A DNA stretch of 64,000 bases from an uncultured Pelagibacteraceae bacterium (GTDB lineage Bacteria; Pseudomonadota; Alphaproteobacteria; Pelagibacterales; Pelagibacteraceae). Position numbers and translations under genes: made by a program. Position 1 is the stretch's first letter. Each line of letters opens with the position of its first letter. The DNA lies in the NCBI GenBank assembly GCA_902582315.1, contig CACHRP010000001.1, positions 149,915 to 213,914 of the forward strand, in the 5' to 3' direction. The notes under the pieces were generated by a model. That model did not search any database. It was not told the origin of the DNA and saw only the letters and a program-made list of their open reading frames with translations. Below are positions 17,772 to 20,067 of this stretch, piece by piece.

Positions 17772-19155
17772 ATTAGCAAAATCTGAGGTTATACATTTTG
17801 TTGGTATCGGAGGTATTGGAATGAGTGGACTCGCTCTAGTAATGAGTAGAATGGGATTTGAGGTTCAAGGTAGTGATATTAGTATTAATAAAAATATTGA
17901 AAGACTAAAAAATAATAAAATTAAAATTTTTATTGGCCATGAAAAAATAAATATCTCTCGTGCAACTATAATTGTAATCTCATCTGCGATAAAAAAAAAT
18001 AATATCGAAGTTATTTCTGCTAAAGCTAGGAGCCTACCAGTCTATAAAAGAGGAGATATGCTAGGACACATAACTTCATTAACGAAAAATATAGTAGTAG
18101 TGGGATCTCATGGAAAGACAACAACAACGTCTCTTGTGGCAAGTATTTTATCTTTGAGTAATCTTGATCCTACAATTATTAACGGTGGAGTTCTTAAATC
18201 GTCAAATAATTCTGCAAGACTTGGAAAAAGTAATTGGAGCATAGTGGAACTTGACGAATCAGATGGTAGTTTTCTAAAAGTTCAACCAACTTATTCAATA
18301 ATAACTAATATTGATAGAGAACATATGGATTACTATAAATCTATGAATAAATTATTAAATTTATTTGTTGAATATGTTAATAGAGTACCTCCGTTTGGAA
18401 AGTCCTTTATCTGTATAGATGATATCAATAATCTTAAATTAATAAAATTAATTAGAGTAAAAAACTTTCTTACTTACGGTACTAATAAAAAATCAAATTT
18501 CTATATAAGTAAATTGAAACAATTAAGAGACAGCTCTTTATTTAACCTTAGGGTAAAACTGCCAGGAAAAAAAACTTTTTCTATTAAAAAAATAAAAATC
18601 CCGATAATTGGATTACACAATATAAGAAATGCAACAGCATCGATTGCGGTTTCGTTAAGTCTTGGAATACCAATAGACAAAATAAAAAAAGGATTAATAA
18701 AATTTAAAGGTGTTCAAAGAAGATTTAATAAAATATTTGAATATAAGGGAGCTAGTTTCTTTGATGACTATGCTCATCACCCAACTGAGATCAAGGAAGT
18801 GCTAAATGGAGTTAAAAGTGCTTATTCATCAGAAAAAATTGTTTGTATATTTCAACCTCATAGAATTTCAAGACTAAATGACCTAAAGTTAGAATTTGCA
18901 AAATGCTTTAGTAAAGCAGATGAAGTAATTTTATGTCCAATTTTTACAGCAGGTGAAACTATAAAATTAAACTTTAGCTACGAGAGTTTTGCTAGACAAA
19001 TGGCTGACCAGTCTCAAGTAAGACTTTATCATATTAAAGATAAATATAATTTAGCTAAATTTATAAAACAAAATATTTATGGAAATAAAATTGTAATTGG
19101 AATGGGCGCTGGATCTATTTCAAGTTGGATGAAAGAATTACCAAAAATAATTTAA
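17761..19155 (+). CDS. murC: UDP-N-acetylmuramate--L-alanine ligase MurC
   Basis: 464-residue ligase that adds L-alanine to UDP-MurNAc, the first peptide-building step. Motifs in order: HFVGIGGIGMSGLA in the UDP-binding domain, the P-loop GSHGKTTTTS near residue 115, ELDESDGSF, TNIDREHMDYY, and in the C-terminal domain GVQRRFNKI, DDYAHHPTEIKE and FQPHRISRL. It is the last gene of the cluster here. murB, ddl, ftsQ and ftsA, which commonly follow murC, are absent. The stop is one base from the 3' end of the initiator tRNA on the other strand, leaving no room for a terminator between them. Confidence 0.97.
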   Translation: MKIKLAKSEVIHFVGIGGIGMSGLALVMSRMGFEVQGSDISINKNIERLKNNKIKIFIGHEKINISRATIIVISSAIKKNNIEVISAKARSLPVYKRGDMLGHITSLTKNIVVVGSHGKTTTTSLVASILSLSNLDPTIINGGVLKSSNNSARLGKSNWSIVELDESDGSFLKVQPTYSIITNIDREHMDYYKSMNKLLNLFVEYVNRVPPFGKSFICIDDINNLKLIKLIRVKNFLTYGTNKKSNFYISKLKQLRDSSLFNLRVKLPGKKTFSIKKIKIPIIGLHNIRNATASIAVSLSLGIPIDKIKKGLIKFKGVQRRFNKIFEYKGASFFDDYAHHPTEIKEVLNGVKSAYSSEKIVCIFQPHRISRLNDLKLEFAKCFSKADEVILCPIFTAGETIKLNFSYESFARQMADQSQVRLYHIKDKYNLAKFIKQNIYGNKIVIGMGAGSISSWMKELPKII

Positions 19156-19156
19156 T

Positions 19157-19233
<77 letters not shown>

Positions 19234-19236
19234 ATA

Positions 19237-19431
19237 TTAAAATCTGTTTTTGAGTTTATTTAACTTTTTTACTCTTTTAATGTTTTCTTGTAAAATTCTT
19301 TTCTTTTTTTCTGAAGGTTTCTCATAGGTGTCTTTTAGCTTGATGATCTTAAAGAAACCATCTCTTTGAAGCTTTCTCTTTAAAACTCTTAAAGCTTGTT
19401 CAACATTATTATCTTTGACTTCTATTTTAAT
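19237..19431 (-). CDS. rpsU: 30S ribosomal protein bS21, apparently started at ATT
   Basis: 64-residue basic protein of the small subunit that sits near the 3' end of 16S rRNA. The sequence KIEVKDNNVEQALRVLKRK, then KDTYEKPSEKKKR, is typical of bS21. No ATG, GTG or TTG exists in this frame anywhere in the gene, and a stop lies just upstream. A perfect GGAGG ribosome-binding site (19437-19441) is followed after five bases by ATT (19429-19431), which I take as the start. CTG at 19443-19441 overlaps that site and is unlikely. AUU is the known start of E. coli infC. The gene is followed by tRNA-fMet after three bases. Gene finders that require ATG/GTG/TTG will miss it. Confidence 0.9.
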   Translation of the reverse strand: MKIEVKDNNVEQALRVLKRKLQRDGFFKIIKLKDTYEKPSEKKKRILQENIKRVKKLNKLKNRF

Positions 19432-19452
19432 AACTACCTCCAGAAAGGCGAT

Positions 19453-19481
19453 TTAATAGCACTTTAATTTTTTTTTGTCTA
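19453..19481 (-). promoter_or_regulatory. Promoter of rpsU and tRNA-fMet
   Basis: On the minus strand TAGACA (19481-19476) and TATTAA (19458-19453) are separated by exactly 17 bases, including a run of A. The start would be near 19446, only a few bases before the GGAGG site of rpsU. This would allow rpsU and the initiator tRNA to be transcribed independently of the upstream DUF1013 gene. Confidence 0.55.
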
Positions 19482-19485
19482 CACA

Positions 19486-20067
19486 TTATGATCCTTGTGT
19501 TGCAGAGGGTTTTTGCTTTTCTTTTTCTTTTTTTTCTCTTTTAATTCTTCTTTCAGCTTTTTCTATCGCTAAAATTAAATCCTTTTGCGTAAATAAATTC
19601 ATAGCCACAGGATCTTTTGAGTTCAAATTATTATAGTTCCAGTAGCTCTTGTTTCTGATTGATGTTACAGAATTTTTTGTTACCCCTACTAATTTTGCAA
19701 TTTGCGAGTCTTTGAGTTGGGGATGGTGCTTAATTAACCACAAAGCAGAGTCAGGTTTATCCTGTCTTTTAGATAATGGAACATACTTTTTTATTTTTTT
19801 ATCCTCTGACTTAATTTCAATATCCGTACCTTTTATTTGAAGCGCTCTACTTTCGTCTCTCGAAGATAAGTCAATTTCTTCTCTGGTTAATTGACCAGAT
19901 ATTATTGGATTGTATGGTTTAATCCCTTTTGCAACTTCACCATCAGCAATTCCCTGGACCTCAACTTCATGTAGATTGCAAAAATTTGCAATTTGTTTGA
20001 AAGTAAGTGTAGTATTTTCCACTAACCAAACAGCAGTTGCTATTGGCATTAAAAGTCCATTTGTCAT
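19486..20067 (-). CDS. DUF1013 family protein (TrcR-like cell-cycle regulator)
   Basis: 193-residue protein matching the alphaproteobacterial DUF1013 family, which is named TrcR, a cell-cycle transcriptional regulator, in current annotation. The family start is clear: MPIATAVWLVENTTLTFKQI, then FCNLHEVEVQGIADGEVAKGI, YNPIISGQLTREEI, and a second helix-turn-helix-like segment with DSALWLIKHHPQLKDSQIAKLVGVTKNSV. A lysine- and glutamate-rich tail ends the protein. The two segments look like repeated DNA-binding motifs. The ATG overlaps the rpmE stop (TAATG), so the two are coupled. The exact target is unknown in this organism. Confidence 0.85.
   Translation of the reverse strand: MTNGLLMPIATAVWLVENTTLTFKQIANFCNLHEVEVQGIADGEVAKGIKPYNPIISGQLTREEIDLSSRDESRALQIKGTDIEIKSEDKKIKKYVPLSKRQDKPDSALWLIKHHPQLKDSQIAKLVGVTKNSVTSIRNKSYWNYNNLNSKDPVAMNLFTQKDLILAIEKAERRIKREKKEKEKQKPSATQGS

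Follow-up and report, generated by a model that had tools for sequence, protein, structure and literature searches.

rpsU of SAR11 bacteria very probably starts at AUU behind a strong Shine-Dalgarno site

The rpsU locus

The window (the whole stretch of DNA analysed, 64,000 nucleotides) contains on its reverse strand the gene rpsU (19237..19431), which has 64 codons counted from an ATT and ends in a TAA stop (19239-19237). Its product is the ribosomal protein bS21: it matches Pfam PF01165 with an E-value of 7.7e-16 (58 bits against a curated cut-off of 27) and NCBIfam TIGR00030 with an E-value of 1.6e-14 (53.5 bits against a curated cut-off of 28.95). An earlier note on this DNA had pointed out that the frame lacks ATG, GTG and TTG and has an in-frame stop upstream, and this is what the window contains: between the nearest upstream in-frame stop (TAA, 19455-19453, reverse strand) and the end of the gene, none of the three codons occurs. 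By way of comparison, we used a simple script to select gene-like frames no shorter than 70 aa in the window; of the resulting 64, rpsU included, all but rpsU have a canonical start within their first 35%. The codon that we take as the putative start, because it is kept across the loci of the family, is the ATT at 19429..19431 (reverse strand). It is directly preceded by TT (19432..19433, reverse strand); the T at position -1 is invariant in the family (165 of 165 loci), while positions -3 and -4 vary. The Shine-Dalgarno site GGAGG, which the same note had placed five bases before ATT, is indeed there (19441-19437, reverse strand), separated from it by the spacer TAGTT.

Upstream of this site we predict a promoter, also on the reverse strand. 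The predicted -10 element, TATTAA preceded by TGC (19453..19458), contains the in-frame stop TAA, and the predicted -35 element, TAGACA (19476..19481), lies 17 bp from it; a gap of 4 nt separates this -35 element from the end of the upstream gene on the same strand, a 193-aa frame (19486..20067). The element was first obtained from a best-fit scan and was then retested at a fixed place with shifted controls. Of 155 same-genus loci, 149 had TAGACA or TGGACA at the fixed place (a register of 21 or 22 nt before the start codon), and 0 of 155 had it at any one of five shifted control places. The common form is TAGACA or TGGACA, 17 bp, and TAnnn followed mostly by A. From the position of the -10 element, the rpsU leader is predicted to be about 13-17 nt long (19432..19448, reverse strand) and to consist of a pyrimidine stretch, GGAGG and the spacer. 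A structured leader of the kind held in Rfam was considered and rejected: a search of positions 19000-19700 against Rfam matched a tRNA alone and zero leader RNAs, and of 200 shuffled versions of the leader plus the first coding bases, 192 fold better than the real sequence.

On the other side of the gene, 3 nt after the rpsU stop, lies a tRNA gene on the same strand (19157..19233), which we take to be that of the initiator tRNA-fMet from its features C1 and its CAT anticodon. The two genes are likely to be on the same transcript. The locus is tightly packed: the 3' end of the tRNA gene is one base from the stop of a convergent gene (window 19153-19157), a 464-aa frame that is presumably murC-like. 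In 163 of 163 family tRNAs the initiator anticodon stem is A-U/G-C/G-C and not three G-C pairs, and the same stem is present in two sister-family genomes; work on mycoplasmas reportedly links initiator tRNAs with such anticodon stems to relaxed starts.

Conservation of the codon and of its Shine-Dalgarno site

Searches by genus found an rpsU match in 82 of 101 genomes, and searches with the Pfam model found one in 180 of 197 genomes of the order and 179 of 190 of the class, many of the genomes being incomplete in both cases. After two distant paralogs had been set aside and 16 duplicates merged, the 183 SAR11-family loci that we read came down to 165 distinct ones; named public records supplied 68 of these. 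(The two paralogs, L294 and L295, are distant bS21-like genes from one SAR11 assembly, G057, and are possibly phage-derived.) Codon 1 is ATT in 155 of the 165, ATG in five, ACG in four and ATC in one. Genera g4 and g5 supply 14 further loci, among which duplicates were left in, and every one reads ATT; L395 and L400, which are cut before the start, and L401, in which the frame is broken, are not among these 14. ATT is present at codon 1 in all six genera of the family. The four ACG loci (L283, L287, L289 and L290) combine GGAGG with an even rarer start.

The claim of the earlier note that rpsU starts at AUU gains from these counts in two ways: each ATT stands behind GGAGG or GGGGG, and the codons that replace it at the same place are themselves start-like. 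All 160 non-AUG loci have one of the two sites (GGAGG in 154, GGGGG in 6), with the five-base spacer between site and start in 152. Counted by the Fitch method, the third base of codon 1 changes 3 times, against a median of 26.5 in the other 62 codons, of which one is lower (1) and four lie between 6 and 9. Part of this conservation is shared descent, because codon 3 is likewise ATA in 154 of the 165 loci.

The site is strong as well as conserved. The 16S tail of the window's genome is GGATTACCTCCTTTCT; within the SAR11 tail, UACCUCC is complementary to the GGAGGTA upstream of rpsU. The pairing of the window's rpsU with its own genome's tail has a value of -11.4 kcal/mol; in the other 63 frames of the window, the median is -2.4 when the first start is used and -5.5 when the best of all candidate starts is taken, and the rpsU value is reached by 0 of 63 and 4 of 63 frames, respectively. 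Only 3 of these 63 frames have GGAGG near the chosen start. Across the family, the ATT loci range from -9.3 to -13.4 kcal/mol, with about 7 bp. The common 16S-tail pattern GGATCACC is absent from the window's genome and was matched in one of 11 other genomes; in its place, the tail of the family carries GGATTACC (5 genomes), although G251 and G102 gave zero matches to this second pattern. In the window's family, five genomes (L246-L250) have a tail reading GGATTACCTCC, and one sister-family genome (L242) has GGATCACCTCC; the T of the former, in place of the C of the latter, allows one more pair with GGAGGTA in the window's family.

The five ATG loci amount to a natural experiment. The earlier note had held that ATG at this position in close relatives would tell against an AUU start; ATG is in fact present in 5 of 165 loci, yet all five lack GGAGG and none has GGGGG, and so the reading of the codon as the start stands. 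Loss of the site alongside ATG is what is expected of a real start codon, and the swap thus marks the codon as the start. Median pairing with the 16S tail is -11.4 kcal/mol in the ATT loci (n=155) and in the ACG loci (n=4) versus -1.1 in the ATG loci (n=5). A point on the other side is local folding, in which GGAGG is only about 39% unpaired on average in the ATT loci, and the same positions are 75% unpaired in the AUG loci. A tree was made from the remainder of rpsU together with its flanking sequence; along its branches we count four changes at codon 1 and two in the Shine-Dalgarno state, both of the latter being losses of the site on branches where AUG arises. These are two separate gains of AUG: one from an ATT background (L270, L271) and one in L282, L286 and L309, which are nested among loci with ACG and GGAGG. 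With only two events, the swap makes a strong illustration but carries modest statistical weight. Taken as a reading of sequence, SAR11 rpsU appears to pair a weak start codon with a strong Shine-Dalgarno site, and we are highly confident that translation of the gene starts at AUU.

The main alternative position for the start lies four codons 5' of ATT, at a TTG or CTG (giving MEVVIKIEV...). TTG stands there in 132 of the 165 loci and CTG in 11; in the window it is CTG, and 7 of 18 database proteins begin at this codon. However, the codon overlaps the GGAGG site itself, and the predicted leader barely extends to it. Moreover, a stop occurs at or after it in 14 of the 165 loci and also in L396 and L399, and 30 of the 165 have no canonical in-frame start anywhere between the upstream stop and ATT. 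In L172, L173, L174, L175 and L180 the stop separates GGAGG from ATT, and a TAG follows GGAGG in L396 and L399; counted by genus, such stops after the site and before ATT occur in the two loci read from each of g2, g3 and g4, plus one g5 locus. An upstream TTG or CTG start is rejected on account of these stops, and we consider it very improbable. That the ATT is a base-call error or that rpsU is a pseudogene can be ruled out, since, although the window rests on one draft assembly, the frame is intact and the identical codon recurs in relatives, including loci from named public records.

The annotation of the gene in databases bears out the suggestion that ordinary gene calling mis-starts rpsU. 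We read 18 bS21 proteins from among 120 listed matches (2708 matches in all): seven start four codons upstream, ten have a longer extension and one starts at the ATT codon, so that 17 of the 18 begin upstream of ATT. Four of the database proteins (P0001, P0002, P0006 and P0013), all from short contigs, have a repeated C-terminal stretch, which is either a duplication or an assembly artefact.

Weak starts of rpsU extend beyond the family. In the sister family, codon 1 is ATA in 33 of 34 distinct loci and ATC in one, behind GGAGG (33 loci) or GGGGG (one locus) with an eight-base spacer, and zero canonical starts occur from eight codons upstream to three codons downstream. Among 49 distinct loci of other alphaproteobacterial families, we read ATG in 9, GTG or TTG in 34 and ATA or ATC in 6, and three further loci read GTG. 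This sample, which consists of the 30 best-scoring loci and 20 hand-picked ones, mostly from small genomes, is not random, and some of its readings are ambiguous: L142, L153 and L208, counted as GTG, have an ATA just before it, and L171 (ATC) and L209 (ATA) have a GTG four codons earlier that overlaps the site. Outside the class but within the phylum, rpsU reads ATG in 23 of 24 loci and TTG in one, again in a sample that is not random (the 30 best-scoring loci, 27 of them new). As a control gene we used rpsP, which has ATG in 29 of 30 genomes (the best 30 of 54 with a match); in the thirtieth, the window's own genome, ATG stands one codon later. We also considered a class-wide trade-off between a weak codon and a strong site. 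It is unsupported, because most AUG loci among the 49 pair as strongly as the ATA and ATC loci do.

For infC, the gene for IF3, 39 genomes gave a match, and we read the start in 30 of them. In the genus of the window it is GTG in 8 of 8 loci by our reading; elsewhere in the family, it is GTG in one g5 genome, ATG in two g2 genomes and ATT (or ATA) in one g3 genome. Judging by spacing, we read ATA in 17 of 18 sister-family genomes and ATC in one. By our reading, the start of this gene varies across the order (L230 and other loci), and one of its forms is a GTG that directly follows an in-frame stop. The bS21 genes of three SAR11 phages (L243, L244 and L245) start with ATG in two cases, TTG in one and AUU in none.

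A possible role for the AUU start

An AUU codon probably lowers the output of rpsU. Beyond this, we lean towards a mechanism in which IF3 holds back initiation at AUU, the Shine-Dalgarno site rescues it, and the output of bS21 tracks the state of the initiation machinery. In this scheme, the 30S subunit would be anchored by the strong GGAGG site on a very short leader, and the initiator tRNA would mispair with the third base of AUU. IF3 would tend to reject such a complex unless it were held long enough, and pairing of GGAGG with the 16S tail may provide that hold and so rescue initiation. Given a weak AUU and rejection by IF3, synthesis of bS21 would be highest when 30S subunits and initiator tRNA are abundant compared with IF3. 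The arrangement might thereby act as a homeostatic setting for bS21, which is adjacent to the anti-Shine-Dalgarno end of 16S rRNA. Whether IF3-dependent regulation of rpsU matters in the cell is a separate question, and here we put the chances a little below even. The strictness of SAR11 IF3 may differ from that of E. coli IF3, because several arginines of the C domain differ between the two (K at 112, 116, 131, 147 and 168).

The main rival is a dosage role without sensing: the promoter, shared with the initiator-tRNA gene, would be strong, and AUU would do no more than fix a low yield and prevent bS21 from being overmade. We regard this as possible, though clearly less likely than the mechanism above. 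The arrangement of the family genomes speaks for it. A tRNA-fMet gene lies within 400 nt downstream of rpsU in 163 of the 165 loci, at 3-8 nt in 153 and at 228-242 nt in six. Eleven of 12 family genomes searched have a single match to the initiator tRNA (the second match in G111, at 71% identity, is probably another tRNA), and the best match adjoins rpsU in 11 of the 12, the single match of G109 (genus g3) being far away. Furthermore, E. coli pcnB, a known AUU start, is translationally limited according to the title of a paper on it. On the other hand, the tRNA gene and the weak start do not always go together. A tRNA-fMet gene lies within 400 nt downstream in 0 of 38 loci of the sister family, where codon 1 is ATA or ATC, and in neither of the two g3 loci (L174, L175), which read ATT; it was likewise found in 0 of 50 other alphaproteobacterial loci, though most of these read weak starts, and all five AUG loci retain it. 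The sister family and the g3 pair, with non-AUG starts but no such tRNA beside them, thus weaken dosage in a tRNA operon as the only explanation.

Somewhat less likely again is a feedback loop by bS21 itself, as in Flavobacterium, in which ribosomes free of bS21 would favour the GGAGG site and AUU would make rpsU fully dependent on pairing. The analogy draws on a loop reported in F. johnsoniae (McNutt et al. 2023, PMC9976891, consulted in part), and it agrees with the strength of the rpsU site in a window where such sites are rare and with the disappearance of the site when AUG appears. Yet the pairing in SAR11, about 7 bp and -11.4 kcal/mol, falls short of what the same source gives for Bacteroidia, where it spans 9-13 bp at -14 to -21 kcal/mol, values that come from a different program.

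A broader version of the IF3 mechanism, which we think unlikely, brings in the tRNA gene. rpsU and the single initiator-tRNA gene would form one transcript whose only frame opens at AUU, and the operon would read initiation fidelity, with initiator tRNA and IF3 together setting bS21; the AUU feedback codon would then sit on rpsU instead of on infC, which has GTG in this genus.

Comparison with known systems

SAR11 bacteria are among the most abundant groups of ocean bacteria, and an AUU start is kept on a ribosomal protein gene throughout them; most of the other alphaproteobacterial loci that we read also have weak rpsU starts. Among the matches listed in the open-access PMC literature, none reports that rpsU starts at a non-AUG codon in SAR11 or in Alphaproteobacteria. 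The depth of conservation, the identity of the gene and the natural AUG swaps make this codon of general interest. AUG has returned twice in nature, each time with the site gone; these cases offer a ready test of a trade-off between codon, Shine-Dalgarno site and IF3, and the mis-started database entries matter for proteomics and for comparing the bS21 of the host with that of SAR11 phages. As for the swap, the parts of Belinky et al. (2017, PMC5622118) that we consulted state that GUG and UUG starts tend to have stronger Shine-Dalgarno sites in general, that alphaproteobacteria show no significant codon-linked difference in the site, and that the direction of start-codon switches is inconclusive.

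A close precedent is E. coli infC, which starts at AUU and through which IF3 limits its own synthesis; according to the portion of the source consulted, E. coli has only two AUU starts, and both infC and pcnB serve as precedents (PMC9410913). SAR11 rpsU shares with infC an AUU start on a gene of the initiation apparatus. However, infC encodes IF3, whereas the product of rpsU is a 30S platform protein of the ribosome, for which control by IF3 would be a matter of analogy, and infC in the window's own genus reads GTG in every locus read. Rare starts are also shared with E. coli pcnB and with S. aureus cvfC1 (AUU) and ccpN (AUA), the two S. aureus genes having an extended site; AUU and AUA starts behind extended sites lower output in S. 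aureus, as described in the part of that report seen (PMC13009471). None of these three genes encodes a ribosomal protein, and cvfC1 is reported to be conserved among staphylococci, whereas the rpsU start spans an order and comes with a natural AUG swap and loss of the site.

Streptomyces sigR has a GTC start behind a strong site and is repressed by IF3 (PMC5472188, consulted in part). It resembles SAR11 rpsU in its non-canonical start, its strong site and its mis-annotation upstream, and differs in having GTC and not AUU, and in that repression by IF3 was shown for sigR but would be an extrapolation for rpsU. As in the class of starts that IF3 discriminates against, the rpsU start lies outside AUG, GUG and UUG (160 of 165 loci) and a strong site accompanies every one of the 160 non-AUG starts.

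Finally, rpsU of Bacteroidota is autoregulated through an extended Shine-Dalgarno site; in Flavobacterium, ribosomes free of bS21 favour rpsU via such a site, as the consulted part of the study describes it (PMC9976891). The likeness lies in the same gene, an unusually strong site and a short predicted leader. Bacteroidota sites are defined by 9-13 bp of pairing and values below about -13 kcal/mol, and the SAR11 pairing, computed with a different program, is shorter and weaker than that; the non-AUG start is what is distinctive to SAR11.
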